Shown here: one piece after another, positions 842 through 39,681 of the stretch
Layout of the letters: every line of letters starts with the position of its first letter
Numbering within the stretch: position 1 is the first letter of the stretch
Source: a virus
IMG/VR virus record: IMGVR_UViG_3300045241_000086
Location: 1 to 39,853 of that record
Strand: one strand, 5' to 3'
Length of the DNA: 39,853 nucleotides
Translations under genes and position numbers: made by a program
Notes under the pieces: generated by a model
What the model was told of the DNA's origin: nothing
Database searches by the model: none
Seen by the model: the letters and a program-made list of their open reading frames with translations, nothing else

Positions 842-1038
842 GCACCACGGAACTTGTGGATGTGTGCGAGGAGTATTCGCGCCGCCTGCGTGCTCTCGAG
901 TTTGACCGCGAAGTGCTGAGGAATGAGCGCCAACGCTTACAGACACGGGTGGCCGTGATGGAAAGCTTCATCCGTGAGAAGGGCGGCAAGGTTGACGACG
1001 CGCTCCAGGCTTGGGCGGACAAGGGATACGGGCTGTGA
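838..1038 (+). CDS. small coiled-coil protein (66 aa)
   Basis: I chose the ATG at 838 rather than an upstream in-frame ATG at 796 because it overlaps the previous stop (ATGA) and has GAGG-type purines about 10 bases upstream. The 66-residue product is a nearly uninterrupted charged helix. It has heptad-like leucine and valine spacing from residue 10 to 50 (RRLRALEFDREVLRNERQRL), so a coiled-coil dimer is likely. No enzymatic motif is visible. Such small coiled-coil proteins are common in actinophage early regions, but the role is unknown. Confidence 0.6.
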   Translation: MSTTELVDVCEEYSRRLRALEFDREVLRNERQRLQTRVAVMESFIREKGGKVDDALQAWADKGYGL

Positions 1039-1108
1039 GCGTCCTGGAAACAGGTTCTGGGGTGGTGTATGTGGAGGTTATGGCTCTCCTCTACACCGGG
1101 GGGTTGTC

Positions 1109-2347
1109 ATGACATCGTTGCCGGAGCCGGTGCAAGGGCCTAATGGTCTGGGTCGCCTGCCCGGCTCCGAGAGCGATGGCTTCACGGAGGCGGCGGACGG
1201 TGTGATTATCCGTCCCATGCTCACACTCCTTGACGCGGTTGATTTCTTCTGCTCTCGCGGCCTGGCAGAGAAGACGCGTAACGATTACCGCCGCCTGCTC
1301 CACCGCTTCAACAAGGACTTCCCGCCCCACATGGACGTGGTGAAGGTTGAGGAGGAGGACATCCTCCGTTACCTCGGCACCCGCCGGCACCTTTCGAGGG
1401 GCACCCAGGCGTGGGAGGAGTCCGTTCTTTCGAGCTTCTTCGACTGGTTGCATAAGAGCCGGAAGATCAAGACGAACCCGATGGTGTACGTGCCCCGGAC
1501 GAAGCGCGTCGACGGGGAATCACTGGACCTGAAGACCGTTTCGAGCCATGAGGTTGGGCTGATGATGGAAGCCGCCGAGACCTGGTCTGAGCGCTTGTGC
1601 TTCGCTGTCCTGGCGTATCTCGGCCCTCGTCGTGGCGGGGCAGCGCGACTGCGCCTCCGCGACTACGAGCGTAGAGCGAACAGACGCCTGAGGTTCTACG
1701 AGAAGGGCGGCAAGGTGATCTGGAAGCCCGTCCCGTACGAGCTCGCCCTGATCCTCGAGGAGGCTTTGAAGGCCGGGGTCATCACCGACCCGAAGTTCTA
1801 CCTAGACGCCTACCCGGATGGTGTGCCTGACGGTTTGTTTTATCTGGTGCCGCCGGAGTGGCGGCTACAACGGCAGGACCGCGACGACCGGGTGATCTGG
1901 CGGATAGTGACCAAGGTTGCGAAGCGGGCTGGTGTGGACGCGCATACTCATTCGATCCGGGCTGCGTTCGCGGACTTCTGCCTTGACAGCGGCATGGACG
2001 GCAAGGCCCTCCAGTTGCTGATGGGCCACAAGAACCCGTCCACTACAGAGCGGTACACGAGGCGTTACGACCAGCAGCGCCGGATGGAGGGAGTGCTCGG
2101 GTTGTCCTGGGATGCTGTCATTGCCGACAACAAACGGGAACGCGGTTTGGCTCAACCATCAGGGTCCACGTTAGATGAGTCTTACGGAGTGGGGGCGGGA
2201 GGATTCGAACCTCCGGAGGATGAGCCTCGTGGAGAACAGGGGGCTGGAACCCAACGGAGCGGGTCGGATGATCTAACAGCCCCGGTTTTTGACCCTATCG
2301 ACGAGCTTGTAAGCCGGATGAAGCACACCGAGAGGGACCGGTCGTGA
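1109..2347 (+). CDS. int: tyrosine-family site-specific integrase
   Basis: This is a 412-residue tyrosine recombinase that would integrate and excise the phage at attP/attB. I start it at the ATG at 1109; the frame is open further upstream but that part is low-complexity and overlaps the previous gene. An N-terminal SAM-like core-binding domain spans about residues 37-130 (LAEKTRNDYRRLLHRF). The catalytic domain shows Arg in GPRRGG (R174/R175), Lys in the beta-hairpin YEKGGK (K199/K202), HSIR (H281, R284), GH (H307) and the nucleophile Y316 in TERYTR. The C-terminal extension after residue 360 reads GVGAGGFEPP, which is the typical in-frame reading of a tRNA 3' end on the opposite strand. The probable attP therefore lies inside the gene. 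Its stop overlaps the next start (GTGA). Confidence 0.93.
   Translation: MTSLPEPVQGPNGLGRLPGSESDGFTEAADGVIIRPMLTLLDAVDFFCSRGLAEKTRNDYRRLLHRFNKDFPPHMDVVKVEEEDILRYLGTRRHLSRGTQAWEESVLSSFFDWLHKSRKIKTNPMVYVPRTKRVDGESLDLKTVSSHEVGLMMEAAETWSERLCFAVLAYLGPRRGGAARLRLRDYERRANRRLRFYEKGGKVIWKPVPYELALILEEALKAGVITDPKFYLDAYPDGVPDGLFYLVPPEWRLQRQDRDDRVIWRIVTKVAKRAGVDAHTHSIRAAFADFCLDSGMDGKALQLLMGHKNPSTTERYTRRYDQQRRMEGVLGLSWDAVIADNKRERGLAQPSGSTLDESYGVGAGGFEPPEDEPRGEQGAGTQRSGSDDLTAPVFDPIDELVSRMKHTERDRS
2190..2222 (-). other. attP: probable attP core: 3' part of a host tRNA gene embedded in int
   Basis: Read on the minus strand, this stretch gives a T-arm, GGAGG TTCGAAT CCTCC, with a perfect 5-bp stem and canonical TTCGAAT loop. 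It is followed directly by CGCCCCC and A, which look like the 3' acceptor strand and discriminator base. The matching 5' acceptor strand (GGGGGCG) is not found within 100 bases, so this is a tRNA 3' fragment and not a complete tRNA gene. Phages that integrate into tRNA genes carry exactly such a fragment at attP so that the tRNA is rebuilt. The tRNA identity cannot be decided from the piece present. Confidence 0.7.
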
Positions 2348-2658
2348 GCGGCTGGGTTTACCTCATCGACGACGGTGCCTACTCGTACAAGATCGGCTAC
2401 GCCCGCGACCCTGAGAAGCGTCTGAAGCTGCTCCAGTGCGGCCACCCCGACCAGTTGCGGATCGCCGCTGTGGTCGAGGGGACCAAGCGGACGGAGCGCG
2501 AACTTCACGAGCTTTTCTCCGGTGACCGTCTGCGCGGCGAGTGGTTTCGTAAGAGCCGCGAGATCGACGGCTACTTCGAGGAGCACGGTTTCAACTGCGT
2601 CTGTGGCAAGGGCGTGGATGCGGAGTGCTTCATCCACGGAGAGGGACCGCCGTGGTGA
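2344..2658 (+). CDS. GIY-YIG-like (T5orf172/MUG113) family protein
   Basis: This 104-residue product starts at GTG 2344, overlapping the integrase stop. The N-terminal pattern VYLIDD...YKIGYARDPEKRL with ELHELFSGDRLRGEWF matches the MUG113/T5orf172 branch of the GIY-YIG nuclease superfamily. The first two strands carry the GIY and YIG equivalents (VYLI and YKIGYA), the Arg is in EKRL, and a conserved Glu lies in TERELHELF. The family is frequent in phages, where members are nuclease-like, but function is rarely proven. The C-terminus (residues 84-104) adds Cys and His residues (CVCGKG, ECFIHG) that could bind zinc. Co-translation with int could mean a role around integration or mobility; this is only positional inference. 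Confidence 0.75.
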   Translation: MSGWVYLIDDGAYSYKIGYARDPEKRLKLLQCGHPDQLRIAAVVEGTKRTERELHELFSGDRLRGEWFRKSREIDGYFEEHGFNCVCGKGVDAECFIHGEGPPW

Positions 2659-2692
2659 ATCAAAAGTCCGTGCTGTCTACCGAGGAGACAGA

Positions 2693-3124
2693 ATGAAAAT
2701 GCTGACAGTTGGTTTCATCCTGGGTTTACTTCTCCTGGCCGGGACAGGCCACGCCGGGGTTGAGAGTCTCTACAGGCCGTTGACGCAGATGCAGCGGGTG
2801 ATGGGGATGCGTGTCGCGAAGCATCCGCCTGCCGTTCACTGGTACCAGCAGGTCAAGTGGGGTTATCAGCACCCGCCGCACAAGCGTCAGTGGTTGTGCA
2901 TCCACCACTTCGAGGGTTCCTGGTCCGACCCGAACGCTCCCTACTACGGGGGACTCCAGGCTGACCTGACGTTCCAGCGCACCTACGCGGGCTACTTGCT
3001 GTCCACGAAGGGCACGGCGGATCATTGGACACCTTTGGAGCAGATGTGGATGGCTGAGCGAGCCCACCGCAGCCGAGGTTTCTATCCCTGGCCCAATACT
3101 GCGCGTTACTGCGGGCTCATCTAG
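2693..3124 (+). CDS. secreted Rpf-like (resuscitation-promoting factor) transglycosylase
   Basis: I start at the ATG at 2693, which has GAGGAGA about 8 bases upstream and is followed at once by a signal peptide (MKMLTVGFILGLLLLAGTG, cleavage near AGTGHAG). The frame is open further upstream but overlaps the previous gene. The mature part, residues 65-143, has the fold signature of small lytic transglycosylases of the Rpf type: CIHHFEGSW with the likely catalytic Glu, YYGGLQADLTFQRTY, GTADHWTPLEQMWMAERA, and a closing FYPWPNTARYCGL. These enzymes cleave peptidoglycan glycan strands outside the cell. The C-terminal wording is close to that of chromosomal Thermoleophilia proteins, so acquisition from the host is likely. 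It sits just after int, away from the lysis cassette. Confidence 0.85.
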   Translation: MKMLTVGFILGLLLLAGTGHAGVESLYRPLTQMQRVMGMRVAKHPPAVHWYQQVKWGYQHPPHKRQWLCIHHFEGSWSDPNAPYYGGLQADLTFQRTYAGYLLSTKGTADHWTPLEQMWMAERAHRSRGFYPWPNTARYCGLI

Positions 3125-3390
3125 TGGGTGGTTCTCGTCAACCCACACCACTTTCCTCTACCGAGTTTGAGCGTCTGTGCGCTCTGTTCCCGCCGGACAC
3201 GGTTCTGCCTCGTAAGCAGATGGCTGCGCTGATGGCAAACAACACGCCTGCTGTGGCGCGTAAGTGGCTCGATGAGAAAGGTCTGCTCGATTCGCAGGTG
3301 TCGCCCTACGTCCATGCGGGGTGTGCGGATCATCCCGGCGAGATCGAGTGGCCGGACAGTGGTTGCGCGGAATGCAGGGCCGAGCCGTGA
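3124..3390 (+). CDS. small hypothetical protein with helix-turn-helix-like middle (88 aa)
   Basis: The GTG at 3124 overlaps the TAG of the Rpf-like gene. The product has a middle segment (FPPDTVLPRKQMAALMANNTPAVARKWLDEKGLL) that could be a winged or simple helix-turn-helix, and a C-terminal C-x2-H plus C-x2-C pattern (AGCADHP...SGCAECR) that may bind zinc. The start codon is in a 6-bp hairpin (GTGGGT 3124-3129 with ACCCAC 3141-3146). The N-terminal peptide GSRQPTPL is shared with the next protein through a 22-bp direct DNA repeat. I cannot assign a function; a small regulator is possible. Confidence 0.6.
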   Translation: MGGSRQPTPLSSTEFERLCALFPPDTVLPRKQMAALMANNTPAVARKWLDEKGLLDSQVSPYVHAGCADHPGEIEWPDSGCAECRAEP

Positions 3391-3554
3391 GTGGTTCTCG
3401 TCAACCCACACCCCTACCGGGCTACATTCGGGGCGGCGTGGATGCGATCAAAGCGAAAGGGCTCTGCGGAGAAGTGTCACCGGACGGCAACCGGGTCTGC
3501 ATCCTGGACGCTGGCCATGCCGAGCCGCATCCTTGGGAGTCTCGTCAACCCACA
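3128..3554 (+). repeat. direct repeats at gene starts, three copies
   Basis: A 22-bp sequence at 3128-3149 recurs exactly at 3391-3412; its central part is TTCTCGTCAACCCACACC. A shorter 15-bp copy (TCTCGTCAACCCACA) is at 3540-3554. The first two copies begin a few bases after a start codon (GTG 3124 and GTG 3387) and encode the same peptide, GSRQPTP. The third lies inside the second gene, in the same codon phase. Local duplication or a start-associated regulatory element are both possible. Confidence 0.75.
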
Positions 3555-3824
3555 GAAGAAGAAGTGCGGACACTGCGTCGCAGGGCTGAGGGGAAGGCGT
3601 TTCCCTGGGATACGGAGACGTGTCTCGCAATCGCAGATTCGTGGCTGGCTCAGAGAGACGTAGTAGAAGCACTGAAAGAAGGGTTGCGCGACTACTGGAC
3701 GACCTACCACGATGAACACTGCACCGATAACTGGCCGCACGCTGGGTACTGCCACTATCCATCCCCGGCGGTTCTGCGTGAGGTGGCTGCTGTGGTTTCT
3801 GGGACACCGGAGGCGAAGCCGTGA
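3387..3824 (+). CDS. hypothetical protein, Cys/His-containing (145 aa)
   Basis: It starts at GTG 3387, overlapping the previous TGA (GTGA). Residues 1-10 repeat the N-terminus of the preceding protein, and a second partial copy of the motif (ESRQPTEEE) lies near residue 51. Visible pieces are a CGEVSPDGNRVCILDAGHAEPH segment resembling small phage domains with paired Cys and His, and a C-terminal HCTDNWPHAGYCHYPSP segment with further Cys and His residues. Two zinc sites are plausible. The last ten codons contain a 20-bp sequence repeated at the end of the next gene. Family not recognised. Confidence 0.6.
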   Translation: MSGSRQPTPLPGYIRGGVDAIKAKGLCGEVSPDGNRVCILDAGHAEPHPWESRQPTEEEVRTLRRRAEGKAFPWDTETCLAIADSWLAQRDVVEALKEGLRDYWTTYHDEHCTDNWPHAGYCHYPSPAVLREVAAVVSGTPEAKP

Positions 3825-4537: not shown

Positions 4538-5239
4538 ATGGCCTCACCTTTCGATGATGGGCGCGTTGGGCTGATGGTGACGGATTGGAGCCTGACGATC
4601 CCTTATGCGAACGTCCCCGCCTATGCGACGGACTTGTTTTTGCCGGCGCACACCGTGCAGTTGACGGGTGGGATGTATGACTCGGTGAAGGGTTTGGCGG
4701 GGCAGCGTGGGACGAAGGTTCAGTGGTGGTGGGACGGCACACACGGACAATCTGGGACAGCGGTTGCTGATGCGATCCACGCGTCACTTACCGCGATCCC
4801 GCAGCACACCGGAGGGGTAGAAGTTGATCTTGAAGCCGGGGATGATGTGGTGCTTAAGAAGCTGCTTGGCGATTTCTATTTGAGGTTTCGGGCGCTTCGT
4901 CCTACGAGAGCTTTGGCTTTGAATGTGGTGCCGTTGAAGGGCCAGTTCCTGCCGCTCTCAGCGATGGCTTTCGATCCAAATGTCCATGTGCGAGTCCAGA
5001 CCTATTACGGCGGCGAGATGCGTCCAGCGGACCCGGCTGAATGTGAAGCCGACATTGTGGACAGAGGTTTCCCCCGGGAGCGGTACTCGATTTGTTATTC
5101 GGCTAAGGCGCGGCGGCAGAAGGACGACTCGATCTTCTGCGACCTACCCGTGTTCTCTGATGGTGGGGCGTATGTGCGGAAGCTGAGGAAGGGCCAGATT
5201 TTCTCGTTGAACCTGATGCGGGAGGCGGGGCTGCTGTGA
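4538..5239 (+). CDS. possible TIM-barrel (glycosidase-like) protein (233 aa)
   Basis: It starts at ATG 4538 immediately after the previous TAG. I do not recognise a named family. The hydrophobic strands are spaced as in a (beta/alpha)8 barrel: GLMVTDWSL, VQLTGGMYD, KVQWWWDG, GVEVDLE, ALALNVVPL, VRVQTYYGG, YSICYSAK and IFSLNLM. Acidic residues at strand ends (DWS near residue 17, DLE near residue 98) are where glycosidase catalysts sit in GH18- and GH25-like folds. There is no signal peptide and no wall-binding domain, so action inside the cell or on the virion cannot be decided. It is the largest gene in this run of small ones. Confidence 0.4.
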   Translation: MASPFDDGRVGLMVTDWSLTIPYANVPAYATDLFLPAHTVQLTGGMYDSVKGLAGQRGTKVQWWWDGTHGQSGTAVADAIHASLTAIPQHTGGVEVDLEAGDDVVLKKLLGDFYLRFRALRPTRALALNVVPLKGQFLPLSAMAFDPNVHVRVQTYYGGEMRPADPAECEADIVDRGFPRERYSICYSAKARRQKDDSIFCDLPVFSDGGAYVRKLRKGQIFSLNLMREAGLL

Positions 5240-31585: not shown

Positions 31586-32536
31586 ATGACACAGCCACGC
31601 CAGTACATAGCCCAGGGGGCGCGGCGAAGAGGACTTGACCCCAGAGCCGTTCTGGCTGTCTCTCAGTACGGAGAGGGCGCAGCAAAGGCACTTAGGGGCG
31701 GAATCTCGGTTGGTGATAACAACACCAGTTTCGGCCCGTTCATGCTGCACATCGGGGGGAGACTCCCGCGTGGCAAGGGTTCAGCCTGGGCTCATTCCAC
31801 CGCAGGAATCGACTACGCACTGGATGAGATCGCCAAGGTTGCCCGGGGTTTGCACGGTAGGGCTGCTGTCGCTGCGATTGTCAAGAGGTTCGAGGCTCCG
31901 GCTAACCCTGGGGCTGAGATTCAGCGTTCGCTGGCTGGTTACGGCCAGGTGCAGGTTGGGGGCGGTGACGCCACATCAGTGAGGCCCGCTCCTCTTCCCG
32001 GGCTCGCAGCCGCCCCCCAACAACAAGAGATAGGACAGGCGCTACTTCAAGCTGTTCAGGCCGGGCCGCAACACAACGACTTCAGCCAGGTCTTCCAGTT
32101 GGTCCAGCAGAAGGCCCAGGCGGACGCGAAGCATCTGTCGAAGAACGTGGTGGTCGACCATAACGAGCCGTTGGCCCCTGACGCGGTGCCGATCGTCAAG
32201 CTCGCGAAGCAGTACTTGGGGACGAAATACCAGTGGGGCGGCACCACACCGAAGGGATTCGATTGTTCGGGGTTCGTGCAGTACCTGTACGGCCACGCCG
32301 GTATCAACCTCCCTCGCACTACCTACCAGCAGATCCATTCCGGCCATGCCGTGAACCCGAACCAGTTGAAACCGGGCGACATCCTGTTCTTCGGGTCGAA
32401 GGCTGACCCTCACCATGAGGGGTTGTACATCGGCCACGGCCAGTTCATCCACGCACCGCACACCGGCGACCACGTTCGCATCTCGTCGCTGAAGAACTAC
32501 GGGCTGCACTTGGTGGCGGCTCGGCGCGTGAAGTAA
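31586..32536 (+). CDS. cell-wall hydrolase: lysozyme-like domain plus NlpC/P60 endopeptidase
   Basis: It starts at ATG 31586 with GGGGGA upstream. Residues 205-316 are an NlpC/P60 domain: YQWGGTTPKGFDCSGFVQYLY with catalytic C227, HHEGLYIG with H277, and QFIHAP with H289 as third residue. This enzyme class cuts peptide stems of peptidoglycan. Residues 5-100 (ARRRGLDPRAVLAVSQYGEG, NTSFGPFMLHIGG, STAGIDYALDEIAKV) look like a lysozyme-like transglycosylase fold with a possible catalytic Glu (E30), so the protein may have two muralytic activities. It has no signal peptide. Being the last of the virion block, it is likely a virion-associated lysin that opens the wall during DNA entry. Confidence 0.85.
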   Translation: MTQPRQYIAQGARRRGLDPRAVLAVSQYGEGAAKALRGGISVGDNNTSFGPFMLHIGGRLPRGKGSAWAHSTAGIDYALDEIAKVARGLHGRAAVAAIVKRFEAPANPGAEIQRSLAGYGQVQVGGGDATSVRPAPLPGLAAAPQQQEIGQALLQAVQAGPQHNDFSQVFQLVQQKAQADAKHLSKNVVVDHNEPLAPDAVPIVKLAKQYLGTKYQWGGTTPKGFDCSGFVQYLYGHAGINLPRTTYQQIHSGHAVNPNQLKPGDILFFGSKADPHHEGLYIGHGQFIHAPHTGDHVRISSLKNYGLHLVAARRVK

Positions 32537-32620: not shown

Positions 32621-33286
32621 ATGCTCAAGTACCTGGCCGCCCTCGCGGCTGTTCTCACGCTGGTTCTGGCCGGATCGGCGCAGGCGATGCACGCAAGCCA
32701 AGGCTCGTCGGTTCAGGGCTACGTGTTTTGGGGCAACGGCAACAACGGTCCCGCCCCGGGTGCAACGGTGTTCATCAACTCGTCGTGCGGCAACAAAACA
32801 ACGCACTCGGCGTCTTCGGGGTATTTCCCGAACACCGGCGGCGGCGTAGTTCTCTCTGACTTCTGCACCTACTCCATCTACGCCTCGTCGGGTGGCTGCA
32901 CGGTTTGGTACAGCGACACGGCGCAGTTCTTCACGAACCACAGTTCGCACTACTACGAGCTGTATCTGCGCCATTCGGTGCGGGTGTGTGGGCAGCCGAT
33001 CGTTTCAGGCTCGGGTAGAGGCGAAGCCAGAAGCCGCGCCCTCTCAGGGAACGTGTCAGGTATCTGTCTGAACCGCACCGGTTCTTACACCATCCCTTGC
33101 TCGGCTGACTATTACCAGAACACCGGGGCCAACTACGTGTACCTCGGGTCAACGTCGGCCGCGTACCACTACATGTATTTCCCGTATTCGGGGTGCGGCA
33201 CCGTGTTCGCCCACGCCGCCGGTCAAACACGGTCGGCGGGTGTTTGCCCGGGCGGGTTTTGGTCACTCACGTTCAACGTCCCCTGA
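32621..33286 (+). CDS. secreted Cys-rich protein with CarboxypepD-reg-like fold (221 aa)
   Basis: It starts at ATG 32621 with AAAGGA upstream. Residues 1-22 form a clean signal peptide (KYLAALAAVLTLVLAG, then SAQA before the cut). The mature part begins with VQGYVFWGNGNNGPAPGATVFINSS and HSASSGYF, which resembles the carboxypeptidase regulatory-like beta-sandwich. It has at least nine cysteines, suggesting disulfides in the exported form, and is rich in Ser, Tyr and Gly. Secreted extra proteins between virion and lysis genes are often lysogenic-conversion or host-surface factors; the role here is unknown. It has its own upstream hairpin and repeat. Confidence 0.65.
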   Translation: MLKYLAALAAVLTLVLAGSAQAMHASQGSSVQGYVFWGNGNNGPAPGATVFINSSCGNKTTHSASSGYFPNTGGGVVLSDFCTYSIYASSGGCTVWYSDTAQFFTNHSSHYYELYLRHSVRVCGQPIVSGSGRGEARSRALSGNVSGICLNRTGSYTIPCSADYYQNTGANYVYLGSTSAAYHYMYFPYSGCGTVFAHAAGQTRSAGVCPGGFWSLTFNVP

Positions 33287-33609: not shown

Positions 33610-34191
33610 ATGAGCGCACCGTCGCCTATTACCGCCGTCTGCGACCGGACCTACTTCCCCGCATACCGGCATTCAGGACGCCGGGAGGAGAACGAGATCA
33701 AGTGGGTGATCCTCCACGACGAGGAAGCACCGACAGCGGAGAGCGCAGCCCGGTACTTCAAAATGTCGACCGCTCGCGGCAGCGCACACCTATGTGTCGA
33801 TGATCTGAAATGCTTCCGGTGTCTCCCCAACGATGCAATCCCCTGGGGCGCGAGTTCGGCGTTCGGGGCCAATACTCATGGCTTCCATATCGAGCAGGCG
33901 GGATACGCGAAATGGACAGGGACGGTGTGGCGGGCGAAGCACATGCGCACCCTGAACAGGGCTGCGTACAAGACAGCATTGCACTGCTACAAGTTCGGTA
34001 TCCCGGTTGCGTTCATCACATCGGATCATCTGCCGTACAAGTGGGGTATCACCACCCACGCCGAAGTCTCTAAAGCGTCGAAGCGTCTTGACCCGGCCAA
34101 TGCGTGGCAATACGGACACACGGACCCGGGGTTCGGATGGCCGCGACGGTTGTTTATGTCGCGTGTGAACGCTTACTACGCCGAGCTATAG
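33610..34191 (+). CDS. endolysin: N-acetylmuramoyl-L-alanine amidase (PGRP/amidase_2 fold)
   Basis: This 193-residue protein starts at ATG 33610. The fold pattern is clear: WVILHDEEAPTAESAARYF with zinc ligand H36, GSAHLCVDD, THGFHIEQAG near residue 95, GITTHAEVS with H150, and YGHTDPGFGWP with D172 as the third ligand. Amidase_2 enzymes cut the bond between MurNAc and the first stem L-Ala. There is no signal peptide and no binding domain, so it needs a holin to reach the wall. It lies in a cluster of holin-like genes, so it is the lysis enzyme, distinct from the virion hydrolase at 31586 and the Rpf-like enzyme at 2693. Confidence 0.85.
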   Translation: MSAPSPITAVCDRTYFPAYRHSGRREENEIKWVILHDEEAPTAESAARYFKMSTARGSAHLCVDDLKCFRCLPNDAIPWGASSAFGANTHGFHIEQAGYAKWTGTVWRAKHMRTLNRAAYKTALHCYKFGIPVAFITSDHLPYKWGITTHAEVSKASKRLDPANAWQYGHTDPGFGWPRRLFMSRVNAYYAEL

Positions 34192-34725: not shown

Positions 34726-34797
34726 ATGTCGCTTCTCTGGATCATCCTCATCATCGTTCTCATCCTGATCCTCGTCGGAGGGGTGGCTAGACGATGA
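34726..34797 (+). CDS. tiny membrane peptide (23 aa)
   Basis: ATG 34726 has AGGAAGGA upstream, and its stop overlaps ATG 34794. The 23 residues are a single hydrophobic helix (LLWIILIIVLILILVGGV) ending in ARR, which would place the C-terminus inside. Peptides like this may tune holin timing. The ribosome site and overlap support translation. Confidence 0.5.
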   Translation: MSLLWIILIIVLILILVGGVARR

Positions 34798-35027
34798 AGG
34801 TCAACCAGGTCAAAGACTTCGCCGAACGAGTCGGCTGGACATTCATCCAGGCGTTCGTCGGGGTGATGGTGCTTCAGTTAATCAAGGACGGCACTAACGT
34901 CGACTGGAAAGACACCGCCTACGGCGCCCTGATAGCAGCTCTGGTGGCTGCTGGGAAGGTGATCATCGCGCAGCAGTTCGGTGACCGTGGCTCCGGCGAC
35001 GCCATCCCGGGAGGGGTTGAGAAATGA
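34794..35027 (+). CDS. holin, r1t-like (77 aa)
   Basis: ATG 34794 overlaps the previous stop (ATGA). The pattern VKDFAERVGWTFIQAFVGVMVLQLI, then VDWKDTAYGALIAALVAAGKVIIAQQFGDRGSG, matches the r1t-type holins widespread in actinophages (dlaERa..TFaQal...vdW..al..a..Aa..s..k...a). Two membrane helices frame a short polar turn. It would form holes that release the amidase. It is the strongest holin candidate in the cassette. Confidence 0.75.
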   Translation: MKVNQVKDFAERVGWTFIQAFVGVMVLQLIKDGTNVDWKDTAYGALIAALVAAGKVIIAQQFGDRGSGDAIPGGVEK

Positions 35028-36160: not shown

Positions 36161-36595
36161 ATGACTGAGAACGGGAAAAGGTTTGTCGAGAACGGAGCTC
36201 GTATCAGGCGAGCCAGGGAACGCCTGCAAAGCACCAGGCCAGCGATCAACCATCGGCCTGACCGTCCGATCAGCCAGGACGACTTCGCGGCGCTCGTCGG
36301 CACAACCCGCCGGAACCTCATGCGCCTCGAGGGCGGGATCACCCGACCTAAGGGTCCATTGCGTGACCGGATTGTTGAGGTCACCGGCACCAAGGAACAA
36401 ATCGAGGCTGCGGACGATGAGGACGAGGAAGACTTGTTCGCCCAACTCCTATCCGAGTTGAAGTGGGCGGGATCGCCGGAGATTTCCTACCGCGACCTCC
36501 ACGGCCACGCCGATGAGCAGGACCTTCGCACCCTCCGGCTGTCCGCGCTCCGCACTCTGTCCAAGGCTGCCCAGATCGCGAGGGAGCTCGCGTGA
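36161..36595 (+). CDS. Cro-like helix-turn-helix regulator (144 aa)
   Basis: ATG 36161 lies at the expected transcription start, so translation would be leaderless. Residues 8-75 form an XRE-type domain: ENGARIRRARERLQ, then PISQDDFAALVGTTRRNLMRLEGGIT as the helix-turn-helix (recognition helix TRRNLMRLE), and PLRDRIVEVTG. The rest is acidic (EAADDEDEEDLFAQLLSELKW), followed by a short helical end. It is the first gene of the rightward early operon and divergent from the repressor. It is likely an early regulator controlling the switch, although it could instead be the maintenance repressor. Confidence 0.7.
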   Translation: MTENGKRFVENGARIRRARERLQSTRPAINHRPDRPISQDDFAALVGTTRRNLMRLEGGITRPKGPLRDRIVEVTGTKEQIEAADDEDEEDLFAQLLSELKWAGSPEISYRDLHGHADEQDLRTLRLSALRTLSKAAQIARELA

Positions 36596-37248
36596 AAGCT
36601 TCTACGGTCGGCACCCTCTTGAAGCTCACCATCGCGGGGCTGATCTTCTACGCCGCCCTCACGGTTGGGGCACACAACGCCCGTGCTGCCAACTGGCCCT
36701 TGGCGCAGCTCGACCAGATCGGCACTTCCCTGAGCGGAAAGCCTGTGAACGTGTACTGCGAGGACTCCTGGTCGCCGTGGGAAGCGTTCTGGGCGCAGTT
36801 CGGGGAGGACGGCACCTACATCGCCGGCTTCACCTACCCCTTCACAGGGTCGACGCTGTTCGTCAGCCCCAAGATTTGCGAAACCCTCCATGCGTTGCTT
36901 GGCAACGAGGACGTGGGTACGTATTACGCCGCCGACGCGATCCTCGTTCTGACGCATGAAGCGACACACCAGCGGCTCCATTCGGGCGATGAGGCGGTTG
37001 TGGAGTGCAACGCTTTGAAGGTGTTCCCGGATGTGGCGCGGGACTACTTTCATGTGCCGACCACCATCTCCGAGCAGTACCTAGCGAGTGTGGTCCGCAA
37101 GGTCAAGGTCGGCAAGAAGGTCAAGCGGGTCACGGTCAAGGTTCTGCGCTACCGAACAGTCGCGAACCCGTACTACACCCGGCTCGTCGTTGACGCCCAC
37201 AGGTGGGACGCCGCGATGCCCGTTCAGTACCACGGTGTGACGTGCTAG
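36592..37248 (+). CDS. exported HExxH protein, putative zinc metallopeptidase (218 aa)
   Basis: GTG 36592 overlaps the regulator stop (GTGA). Residues 9-32 are a signal peptide or signal anchor (LLKLTIAGLIFYAALTVG, ending NARAANW). The motif LVLTHEATHQRL (H122, E123, H126) is followed by GDEAVVECNALK (E138 as likely third ligand), as in a family of actinobacterial proteins with HEAxH...DEAxxEC. At least four Cys lie in the exported part (C56, C96, C139, C218), so disulfides are possible. An exported enzyme in an early operon, beside the immunity genes, suggests a role at the host surface such as exclusion or conversion. Proteolysis itself is not shown. Confidence 0.7.
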   Translation: MKASTVGTLLKLTIAGLIFYAALTVGAHNARAANWPLAQLDQIGTSLSGKPVNVYCEDSWSPWEAFWAQFGEDGTYIAGFTYPFTGSTLFVSPKICETLHALLGNEDVGTYYAADAILVLTHEATHQRLHSGDEAVVECNALKVFPDVARDYFHVPTTISEQYLASVVRKVKVGKKVKRVTVKVLRYRTVANPYYTRLVVDAHRWDAAMPVQYHGVTC

Positions 37249-37343
37249 CGATCTATTGCCACGGCAACCCCGCTTGCGCTATCCAAAGGATGGGCCGGTG
37301 GTACTGCGGACGCTGCGGTACCCGCGTGAGGGTTGTTTGGTGA
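37242..37343 (+). CDS. small zinc-ribbon protein (33 aa)
   Basis: GTG 37242 overlaps the end of the previous gene by 7 bases, in another frame. The 33 residues contain IYCHGNPACAIQRMGRWYCGRCG, a four-cysteine ribbon (C-x6-C and C-x2-C), then a basic end. Its stop overlaps GTG 37340 (GTGA). The intact metal motif and coupling make it a likely gene despite its size. Confidence 0.5.
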   Translation: MLAIYCHGNPACAIQRMGRWYCGRCGTRVRVVW

Positions 37344-37444
37344 CCTGGGAGCTTCTCTACGGGCCTGTGGCGACCACCTACGCCATCCTGGTCATCATCG
37401 CGTGTGTCGCGGTGTTCCTCTACTGGATCGTGACGCGGCCATGA
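37340..37444 (+). CDS. small single-pass membrane protein (34 aa)
   Basis: GTG 37340 overlaps the previous TGA and has GAGGG 10 bases upstream; its stop overlaps ATG 37441. One membrane helix (TTYAILVIIACVAVFLYWIV) spans most of the 34 residues. The frame is open to TTG 37256, but that would overlap the zinc-ribbon gene. Role unknown; it may partner the exported protein upstream. Confidence 0.5.
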   Translation: MTWELLYGPVATTYAILVIIACVAVFLYWIVTRP

Positions 37445-37644
37445 GCGTGAGAGCAGAACCCGTCTTCGAGCTCGTGTTCCCCGAATCGAACCGGCTGCTT
37501 GCCGAGGCTGAGTCCTTGGAGGCGATCCTGCTTGCCGCCGCGACAATTCGCGGTGACGGCGAGGACCTTTCCGGTGTCGTGGTGATGAAAGCCGGACGAT
37601 ACGACGCGGCCACGACCGCTCTGATCGCTGAGGATCTCGCGTGA
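37441..37644 (+). CDS. small hypothetical protein (67 aa)
   Basis: ATG 37441 overlaps the previous stop (ATGA), and its stop overlaps GTG 37641. The fold looks alpha/beta: a strand (VFELVFPES), a helix (NRLLAEAESLEAILLAAATI), a strand (LSGVVVMKAG) and a helix (AATTALIAEDLA). No family recognised. Confidence 0.55.
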   Translation: MSVRAEPVFELVFPESNRLLAEAESLEAILLAAATIRGDGEDLSGVVVMKAGRYDAATTALIAEDLA

Positions 37645-38012
37645 AGGGTCAGAAGGGACGCATCCTCGAAATCCTCGGTGACGGGCAGCCGCACAGTCAC
37701 CACGAGTTCTACGGGTTCTGTGTGCTGCACTCCCGGATCTCGGAGCTTCGGCGGCGGTACGGATACGACATTCGGTGTTGGCGCGACGGAGACGACTACC
37801 TGTACCAGCTTGGGGGTGTGCGCGAGTCGGATCTGGTCCCCGCTACTGGCGGAGCGGATCGAGACCGTCCGACTCGCGGACAGCCCTCGACAGCTGTCCC
37901 TCCTGCCTCTACGACCCCTGAAACCGCAGAGGCAGACGTTGCTGGCCTGGGTCACTCTCCCCCTTCCATCGGCCCGGGCCAGCAACTCACTCTTGAGGAG
38001 GTAGCAGCATGA
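37641..38012 (+). CDS. winged-helix-like protein (123 aa)
   Basis: GTG 37641 overlaps the previous stop (GTGA). Residues 1-57 fit a small winged helix-turn-helix common in phage early regions: KGQKGRILEILGDGQPHSHHEFYG, FCVLHSRISELRRRYGYDIRC (recognition helix) and a wing GDDYLYQL. The rest (residues 60-115) is Pro/Thr-rich and probably disordered. It may be a transcription or replication accessory factor. Confidence 0.6.
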   Translation: MKGQKGRILEILGDGQPHSHHEFYGFCVLHSRISELRRRYGYDIRCWRDGDDYLYQLGGVRESDLVPATGGADRDRPTRGQPSTAVPPASTTPETAEADVAGLGHSPPSIGPGQQLTLEEVAA

Positions 38013-38236
38013 GCGACCCGCGTTACCCAGACGTCGAAGTGCAGCTAACAGGCGAGGACGGCAACGCGTTCGCTGTCCTCGGAAACGTTCAGCGTGAACT
38101 CCGCGCCTACTTCCGCGAGAGCGGCTGGACGACCGGCGAGGCGATGAAGGAAATCAACGCCTTCCAAGAGGAAGCGACAAACGGTGACTACAACCATCTG
38201 CTTCGGACCTGCGGCGACTGGGTGACGGTGGCGTGA
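38009..38236 (+). CDS. small phage hypothetical protein (75 aa)
   Basis: ATG 38009 overlaps the previous stop, with GAGGAGG 10 bases upstream. The pattern VEVQLTGEDGNAFAVLGNVQRELR, then GWTTGEAMKEINAFQEEATNGDYNHLLRTCGDWV, is recognisable as a conserved small protein of actinophage early regions. As far as I know it has no assigned function. Confidence 0.65.
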   Translation: MSDPRYPDVEVQLTGEDGNAFAVLGNVQRELRAYFRESGWTTGEAMKEINAFQEEATNGDYNHLLRTCGDWVTVA

Positions 38237-38463
38237 TCTACGGCATCGACCTCGCTGGCATGCGGTTCCCGCGCTCCATGCTCAACAGCCCCGCGAACGA
38301 ACGGCTACTTGAGAGCTTCGGGGTGGAGATCGTGGACGACCGCGACGCCGAGCTCGAAGACTATGCGAGGGCGTGGCTCGCTCAGGTGGAGCGCCACGAC
38401 TGGGGTAAGGAACCGCCGGCGACGAAGGCTGTGCGGCGTGCGCTTGAGCGGAGAGCTGCGTGA
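38233..38463 (+). CDS. small hypothetical protein (76 aa)
   Basis: GTG 38233 overlaps the previous stop (GTGA). The product begins with a strand-turn (IYGIDLAGMRFP), followed by charged helices (NERLLESFGVEIV, DAELEDYARAWLAQVERHDW) and a basic end (TKAVRRALERRAA). No family recognised. Confidence 0.5.
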   Translation: MIYGIDLAGMRFPRSMLNSPANERLLESFGVEIVDDRDAELEDYARAWLAQVERHDWGKEPPATKAVRRALERRAA

Positions 38464-38984
38464 TGGCGTCTCTGTGGGCAGGCGCCGACCGGGACGTTGA
38501 GCCCGACTGGAAGCCGGAGAAGCGCGAGAAGGCCACTCGGTACGGCTGGGCTGTCATCTACGCGCACTTCGAGAACGCTTGCTGCGTCCATTGCGGGCTG
38601 CCGAACGTGAAGTCGCTCCACCACATTGCTTTCCGCAAGGCTGATTCCGGTGACGACGTGATCGAGAACCTCGCGCCAATGTGCCGACCCCACCATGACC
38701 TGTTCCATTCACGCGGGCCGGGTTGGGAGCAGGTGGCAGCTTCGCTTCGCGTTTACGTACTCACGAACCGTGACCGCTGCGTCTACATGAAGTCGAAACT
38801 GTCGTGGGAGCGGTTCTCGAACCGTTACCCGTTGCTGTCACCGGGGCCGGATGCGGTCTGCGCGCACGCTGGTCAGCCATCCGGCTCCGATGAGAGCGAT
38901 TGGGAGCATTGGGAAGCCCCGGACGAACGCCTGTCCCCGTGGGACATCGCCTACGAACCCACACCCTGGTTGGAGGACAAATGA
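38463..38984 (+). CDS. HNH nuclease-like protein (173 aa)
   Basis: ATG 38463 overlaps the previous stop; a GTG three bases earlier is also possible. Residues 34-80 give CCVHCGLPNVKSLHHIAFRK, then ENLAPMCRPHHDLFH, the HNH set with two Cys pairs, catalytic His and closing HH. Unlike the two other HNH proteins here it lies in the early operon, just before an SSB-like gene. A role in recombination, host DNA breakdown or homing are all open. The C-terminal 90 residues are acidic and aromatic without a known domain. Confidence 0.75.
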   Translation: MASLWAGADRDVEPDWKPEKREKATRYGWAVIYAHFENACCVHCGLPNVKSLHHIAFRKADSGDDVIENLAPMCRPHHDLFHSRGPGWEQVAASLRVYVLTNRDRCVYMKSKLSWERFSNRYPLLSPGPDAVCAHAGQPSGSDESDWEHWEAPDERLSPWDIAYEPTPWLEDK

Positions 38985-39175
38985 GCCAGCAGGACGTTCA
39001 CGAAATCATCTGTCCGCACCGTGACCGGGAGCTTGAGCGGCTTCGCGATGAGCGACCCCGCATCGAGGGGATCGTCCTCGCTCTCCGACGCAAGTTGATC
39101 GCGGCGGATTCGACGTTGCCGCACGAGCTCGACGGGACAGCCTGGATGCCAATCGAAGACGAGTGGAGGAGCTAG
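38981..39175 (+). CDS. small hypothetical protein (64 aa)
   Basis: ATG 38981 overlaps the previous stop (ATGA) with TGGAGGA upstream. The product has one Cys/His pair (ICPHRD) followed by a charged helix (RELERLRDERPRIEGIVLALRRKLIA). No family recognised. Its stop shares its last base with the GTG of the SSB-like gene. Confidence 0.5.
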   Translation: MSQQDVHEIICPHRDRELERLRDERPRIEGIVLALRRKLIAADSTLPHELDGTAWMPIEDEWRS

Positions 39176-39681
39176 TGGAAGAGATTGCTGTTGTTGAGGT
39201 TGGGCTACAGGAAGGCACCCGCAACGACGGGAGCACCTGGAGCAGGTGGACGATCAAGGACGGCAACGGCCGCACCTTCTCCACCTTCAACGAGGACTTC
39301 GCCGGGAAGCTGAAGCAGGGCTCAAGAGCTTTGATTGAGTTCGAGGAGAAAACCCTCACCCCCGGTCGGGATGGTTCACCGCGGAAGGTGAAAAACATCA
39401 CCGCCGTGGAGGCGACAGGGAACGGTTCCGTGCCGGAGCCTGGCTACTCGCAGCAGAAACCAACTGGTGAGCGTGACGAAGACAAGGTTGCCCTCGGCAA
39501 AACTCGGTGCCTCCTCTGGGCCGAACTCCTCTCCGGGCTGTCCTCGAGCCTCTACGCGCAGCACAAAGGCGATCTCGGCTCGTTCATCCGTGCCGCTGTG
39601 GTTCTTGTGGCGGCGGCGGAGAAGGACATTTTTGAGCGTCCTGCCGGGGACGACGGGTTCCCTTTTAACGAGGACGAGTAG
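39175..39681 (+). CDS. single-stranded DNA-binding-like protein (168 aa)
   Basis: I chose GTG 39175 because GGAGGAG lies upstream and it overlaps the previous TAG; GTG 39163 is also in frame. Residues 1-80 look like an OB fold: strands VVEVGLQEG, STWSRWTIKDGNGRTFSTF, RALIEFEEKTL and VKNITAVEA. Residues 100-150 are helical. The C-terminus is acidic and contains DDGFPF close to the end, resembling the SSB tip that recruits replication proteins, but with six more residues (NEDEx type) after it. It likely coats ssDNA in replication or recombination. Bacterial SSB is the nearest known comparison. Confidence 0.6.
   Translation: MEEIAVVEVGLQEGTRNDGSTWSRWTIKDGNGRTFSTFNEDFAGKLKQGSRALIEFEEKTLTPGRDGSPRKVKNITAVEATGNGSVPEPGYSQQKPTGERDEDKVALGKTRCLLWAELLSGLSSSLYAQHKGDLGSFIRAAVVLVAAAEKDIFERPAGDDGFPFNEDE

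Follow-up and report, generated by a model that had tools for sequence, protein, structure and literature searches.

What does a phage gain from an exported enzyme of the Rpf type that is encoded beside its integrase rather than with its lysis genes? We consider this question for a viral sequence recorded as linear and 39,853 bases long (the window), whose features of interest are collected in Table 1. The two ends of the window belong together, as homologues of 36592-39681 and 30-841 form a single run before the integrase gene (int) of the related G007. Distances between the two ends are given on the joined map.

Table 1. Features of the window discussed in the text
Feature	Position	Strand	Evidence or remarks
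Tyrosine integrase (int) ORF	974..2347	+	PF00589 E 1.2e-14, PF02899; phrog_1 E 3.3e-28
attP core, in 3' part of int	2185..2215	-	26-31 bp identical to host tRNA-Tyr(GUA) 3' end plus flank in compared examples
GIY-YIG-like (T5orf172/MUG113) protein	2344..2658	+	PF13455 E 1.9e-13, PF10544 E 2.4e-8
Conserved island: ribosome site, start codon, signal peptide	2668..2733	+	91% identity to G007 over 69 bp
Gene for predicted secreted Rpf-type lytic transglycosylase	2693..3124	+	Domain at about residues 59-143 (2867-3121); catalytic Glu74 codon 2912-2914
20-bp gene-boundary repeat; G007 homology resumes after stop	3127..3146	+	20/20 identical to L008 8471-8490
NlpC/P60 protein, tail-associated type	31586..32536	+	PF00877 E 6.1e-31; phrog_329 minor tail protein E 6.7e-35
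Amidase_2, the phage's own endolysin	33610..34191	+	PF01510 E 9.5e-8; phrog_12609 endolysin E 4.5e-21
Holin	34794..35027	+	phrog_443 holin E 1.6e-10

The gene runs from an ATG at 2693 to a stop codon at 3122-3124, a frame of 143 codons without an internal stop, and has a ribosome site, GAGGAG, at 2682-2687. By inspection, the N terminus of the protein, MKMLTVGFILGLLLLAGTGHA followed by G, is hydrophobic and has the look of a Sec signal, ending in GTGHA directly before that G; a crude signal test was passed by 50 of 67 viral relatives. Single-sequence searches of Pfam, NCBIfam, and PDB were too weak to place the fold of the remainder: the protein scored 16.4 bits against PF06737 (E 0.014), below the cut-off of 27, and matched RpfE in PDB at E 0.099. 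The alignment profile settled the matter. A profile of 56 relatives matched only Rpf chains in PDB, with RpfB as the best (E 1.6e-7), and PF06737 was matched by 26 of the 56 family members (best E 4.8e-11). An AF2 model (mean pLDDT 89.8; 96-99, about 98, in the domain) superimposes on the catalytic domain of RpfB with a Z score of 13.7 and an rmsd of 1.3 Å over 76 residues. Rpf structures rank first when this model is compared using Foldseek and VIA-align, the next fold being that of animal lysozymes (Z about 7.5). Hence, the signal peptide and Rpf-type transglycosylase domain claimed in an earlier, sequence-only reading of the locus are borne out by the frame, the leader (by inspection), the family profile, and the model.

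Glu74, W77, GG86-87, Q89, W112, Q117, WP133-134, and the cysteines at 69 and 140 are invariant in all 56 relatives. Glu74 falls on the Rpf Glu, and the W-to-E register with Rpf is gapless by eye, while the two cysteines seem to be displaced at both ends, by roughly a helical turn, from what we take to be their positions in Rpf. Like RpfB, RpfC, and RpfE, the window protein has the Rpf fold (Z 12.0 to 13.9), the WxxxxxxE and YYGG..Q...WP signatures, and a secretion signal (by inspection in the window), but it is only some 23 to 34% identical to them and carries a short helical spacer instead of DUF348/G5 or LysM domains. Because it misses the PF06737 cut-off while close homologues exceed it (a host copy in G050 with 32.2 bits, and the viral L048 and L241 with 33.0 and 29.9), we regard the protein as Rpf-like, from a divergent Thermoleophilia branch, and not as a canonical Rpf member.

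Where did this domain come from? The sequence-only reading had suggested a phylogeny against host homologues as a check on its proposal, and in a tree of 118 domains, which rests on few columns and is unsure at its deep forks, the window domain nests among Thermoleophilia chromosomal copies, grouping with those of G252, G090, and G050 (UFBoot 97, SH-aLRT 77). Its best identity to host copies is 82% over 89 columns. This clade is host-rich with several phage sequences scattered in it, and a separate large set is viral only. The host copies adjoin gatB, gatA, folD, serA, and an aminotransferase gene (named from sequence) in a conserved chromosomal block and are therefore not prophage genes. The GC content of the window gene, 61%, equals that of the phage and not the 66 to 67% of these hosts, and a codon comparison with the G090 host copy indicates purifying selection (dN 0.15, dS about 1.5), so the capture was not recent. 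On this evidence, the window Rpf domain is of host origin.

The attachment site points to the same hosts. The attP 25-mer is present in 30 of 299 Thermoleophilia-class genomes, with the same tRNA context in all 30 (tRNA-Tyr in 15 of 15 scanned). The Rpf-like family occurs in 28 of these 30 genomes versus 70 of the 299 class genomes overall, a difference to which genome relatedness contributes, and a phylum-wide draw of 296 genomes gave matches only in two Thermoleophilia-class genomes and two weak others. A Thermoleophilia host, of which the Rpf-like protein had been read as a clue, is thus confirmed by both the match to tRNA-Tyr 3' ends and the nesting of the Rpf domain, and the claim that the phage is temperate is likewise supported. 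No exact integrated prophage of the window phage was found among the 299 class genomes; homologues of its integrase occur in only three of them, and the closest, in G172, adjoins a different tRNA end. The phage of L105, with an integrase 43% identical to that of the window, has the same tRNA-Tyr 3'-end sequence after int (L105 5095-5105) and other genes in the slot, no Rpf-like gene being seen after its int.

The catalytic residues of the integrase lie upstream of attP, and the ORF, whose real start may be further in, continues through attP into a tail. Integration at the attP core would cut int in this noncatalytic tail and would place the Rpf-like gene close to the end of the prophage that lies opposite int, as cargo severed from int transcription. 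The part of the tail at 2290-2347 (FDPIDELVSRMKHTER) is similar to the last part of a small, distinct ORF in G007 (L008 7497-7745; PDPLVDDLVERLKQTEK). The integrases of the window and G007 differ, and a change of the int/attP module would seem to leave the tail in place.

The start of the GIY-YIG-like gene overlaps the int stop by 4 nt, and the Rpf-like gene follows 34 nt further on. The map therefore agrees with the location that had been claimed, beside int and outside the lysis and virion blocks. A promoter and terminator scan was uninformative, with no promoter assigned (none found, 1.3 expected by chance). Since an amidase and a holin are also encoded in the window, the Rpf-like enzyme is not the main endolysin. 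An export signal (by inspection) together with a muralytic fold might be expected of a principal endolysin of the secreted or signal-arrest-release type, but amidase and holin stand in one block, about 9 kb from the Rpf-like gene on the joined map, and we find this interpretation scarcely credible. Other proteins of the window may be mentioned here. A second secreted protein, without a known family, is encoded in the lysis region between the NlpC/P60 and amidase genes (32621-33286). The product of 36592-37248 has a signal peptide and a HEATH (HExxH) motif with a downstream Glu, is 71% identical in G007, and looks like a secreted metallopeptidase, with no match in Pfam or NCBIfam. Finally, 4538-5239 encodes a protein of 233 amino acids with the motifs VEVDLEAGDDV and WWWDGTHG and no family in Pfam, PHROGs, or NCBIfam.

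The most telling evidence on what the phages keep comes from relatives in which the enzyme has been exchanged. G007 (L008) has the same leader in the same place, after an unrelated integrase, followed by a different body: a lysozyme-like domain near SLT_3 (PF18896; 25.3 bits, cut-off 27). At both edges of the conserved leader island, homology between the DNA of the window and that of G007 breaks off, and the enzyme bodies have nothing detectable in common until homology resumes at the repeat behind the stop codon. Two kinds of short exact repeat (GGTTCTCGTCAACCCAC and GTGGTTTCTGGGACACC) recur at successive gene junctions of the window, one at 3127-3146, 3391-3409, and 3540 and the other at 3792 and 4034, and both are also found at junctions in G007; these repeats are possible recombination joints for gene cassettes.

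A second case is more precise still. Upstream, L241, of the Rpf type, and L178/L179, of the SLT type, share 97.1% identity for up to 5,997 bp and have the same sequence in the leader region shown. They diverge after codon 25, just past the signal peptide, and rejoin at the stop codon, from where they are 97.8% identical over 1,221 bp. An assembly chimera is an unlikely cause, as there is a difference of 2 to 3% in each flank, and the assemblies with the SLT version came from separate samples. Spacers between leader and body are likewise common to both enzyme types: that of L214 is shared with G007 (45% over 71 amino acids), that of L185 with L163, L164, L180, and L181, and that of G002 with L175.

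The SLT-like family was found in 52 viral loci. It resembles SLT_3 and other lysozyme-like domains (PF18896) and has an invariant Glu, and it is much diverged from the Rpf type; hhalign gives the two families a probability of 52% (E 1.5e-4), and they would appear to be remote relatives. A model of the G007 body matches MltF and Rpf with Z of about 7, a value that chance matches can also reach. No locus carried both types when 83 and 54 loci were compared. Among whole records, the Rpf type was absent from all 29 SLT-type records, and the SLT type from all 49 Rpf-type records, where a positive control was detected. This is suggestive of mutual exclusion, in records that are mostly fragments. Pattern scans with the two leaders found no third enzyme type behind them. 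Taken together, these sequence comparisons indicate that Thermoleophilia phages probably hold a dedicated slot, in which the ribosome site and leader are fixed, the spacer is often shared, and whole Rpf and SLT bodies are swapped precisely.

How widespread is the gene, and is it tied to lysogeny? A scan of IMG/VR with the family alignment turned up relatives in at least 100 viral stretches, 80 of which were kept, and none was found in the 50,697 cultured-phage records of INPHARED. Among the 47 Rpf-type records longer than 20 kb, many of them fragments, 13 have a tyrosine integrase and 34 show none, so that the gene does not appear to be a speciality of lysogeny; its use as a marker of temperate phages was dropped for this reason. 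When the window, G007, and G006 are added, there are 16 integrase-bearing records, and in 13 of these the enzyme gene has the same strand as int and lies 0.6 to 4.2 kb downstream, where about 1.1 would be expected by chance, although some of the phages are related and the positions are not independent. Sequences resembling tRNA 3' ends, and hence att sites, directly follow int in L105, L200, L201, L205, and L256. Elsewhere, the setting is different. In L198, L211, and L232, some 20 bases at most separate the end of the Rpf-type gene from the start of TerL homology on the same strand, and in other records an NlpC/P60 or CHAP gene is found nearby. In L207, L218, L221, L226, L231, and L238, an NlpC/P60 gene lies on the opposite strand at 0.25 to 1.2 kb. 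Rpf and NlpC/P60 enzymes cooperate in mycobacteria.

The position beside int and outside the lysis cassette, in the window and most integrase-bearing relatives, would suit a lysogenic role and an early role equally. Conceivably, the gene is lysogenic-conversion cargo, expressed from the prophage just inside att opposite int, which aids growth or wall turnover of the lysogen or alters the wall against superinfection. The closeness to attP in the window, the short distance from int in the relatives, and the tRNA-3'-end sequences behind int all fit such a role. Nevertheless, we think it rather improbable, given the many larger Rpf-type records without a tyrosine integrase and, in the window, a gene without an assigned promoter that integration would sever from int transcription. 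The same near-att position and the host origin might also be expected of a mere passenger, a host gene caught by chance near the attachment site and without present function. Purifying selection, the invariant catalytic residues, the presence of the family in so many viral stretches, and the retention of the leader when a different wall enzyme takes the place of the body all argue against this, and we consider it very unlikely.

The sequence-only reading had proposed that the phage might revive dormant hosts. In a broader form, the exported Rpf domain would stimulate slow or dormant cells or replace a host Rpf activity that the phage needs, allowing infection of non-growing soil populations. 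The Rpf fold and the origin from a host rpf-like gene are in line with this, as are observations on other phages: infection is reportedly reduced in Rpf-deficient mycobacteria (conference abstract, PMC12908700), the tape measure protein of Barnyard has Rpf-related motif 1 and mt3 of TM4 aids infection of stationary cells (PMC1796659), and WC1 infection is accompanied by a rise of host rpf genes (PMC10986025). Revival is, however, not specifically supported, as sister phages carry a non-Rpf, lysozyme-like enzyme behind the same leader in the same slot, and no Rpf-specific accessory domain has been kept. Because Rpf resuscitation itself acts via wall cleavage (PMC1796659), the proposal retains some plausibility, but we consider it a minority possibility, ranking it after auxiliary wall loosening and before lysogenic conversion.

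Since the same leader and slot can carry a non-Rpf enzyme, the property that is kept seems to be exported glycan cleavage, which suggests that selection on the phages maintains the cutting and not a signal specific to Rpf. On balance, then, we favor a host-derived, Sec-exported transglycosylase with a modeled Rpf fold and a conserved catalytic Glu, set near attP with the phage's own ribosome site and signal peptide in front, that loosens the wall in an auxiliary manner and has an exchangeable catalytic body. Such an enzyme would be exported from the infected cell, would cut the glycan strands of the wall, and may act early, beside the cytoplasmic amidase endolysin; once released, it could also act on neighboring walls. 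In related phages, an SLT-like body would take the place of the Rpf body behind a retained leader. We prefer auxiliary wall loosening because exported cleavage would be common to both enzyme types and because the nearest tested case, Tgl of Kayvirus, appears to be analogous. Tgl is a secreted transglycosylase, like a host autolysin, with an Rpf-like core motif, and serves as an additional endolysin, together with the main one, and can be transcribed early (PMC7150955). Likewise, the window phage combines a Sec signal (by inspection) and a predicted transglycosylase domain with a separate main endolysin. In contrast to tgl, which lies near lysK in the lytic module of a virulent staphylococcal phage, the window gene is situated beside int and attP in a temperate phage, and among its relatives two enzyme types are exchanged behind one leader. 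The window enzyme may thus work like Tgl, yet we do not file it as a member of the Tgl family.

Parts of this picture are already known, namely, phage secretion of a host-type transglycosylase, the Rpf motif in tape measure proteins, and the displacement of Rpf by Sps between phyla. Barnyard and TM4 also use an Rpf-related or host-like wall-cutting domain (PMC1796659), but theirs resides in the virion tail, whereas the window enzyme would be a free secreted protein. In the ancient, non-orthologous displacement between Rpf and Sps, which occurred between bacterial phyla (PMC1084345), one wall-cutting domain likewise replaced another within an otherwise kept protein context. The phage swap differs in that it took place between genomes of up to 97% identity whose leaders are conserved as DNA. 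In the literature searched, of which our coverage is incomplete, we found neither a free secreted phage Rpf-type protein near attP nor a case in which catalytic bodies are exchanged with precision at the DNA level while the leader stays fixed.

In conclusion, the attP and family comparisons may supply a host assignment for many soil phages that at present have none. The leaders and spacers provide ready tags for finding more exchangeable wall enzymes. L241 and L178/L179, as a pair that differs only in the mature enzyme, amount to a natural complementation experiment on which property of Rpf the phages keep, and they offer a direct test of whether Rpf action exceeds glycan cleavage and connect the growth of phages with wall enzymes of soil actinobacteria that grow slowly. 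If the exchange slot exists as we propose, it would give these phages a replaceable exported wall cutter, tuned to the wall chemistry or the inhibitors of the host.
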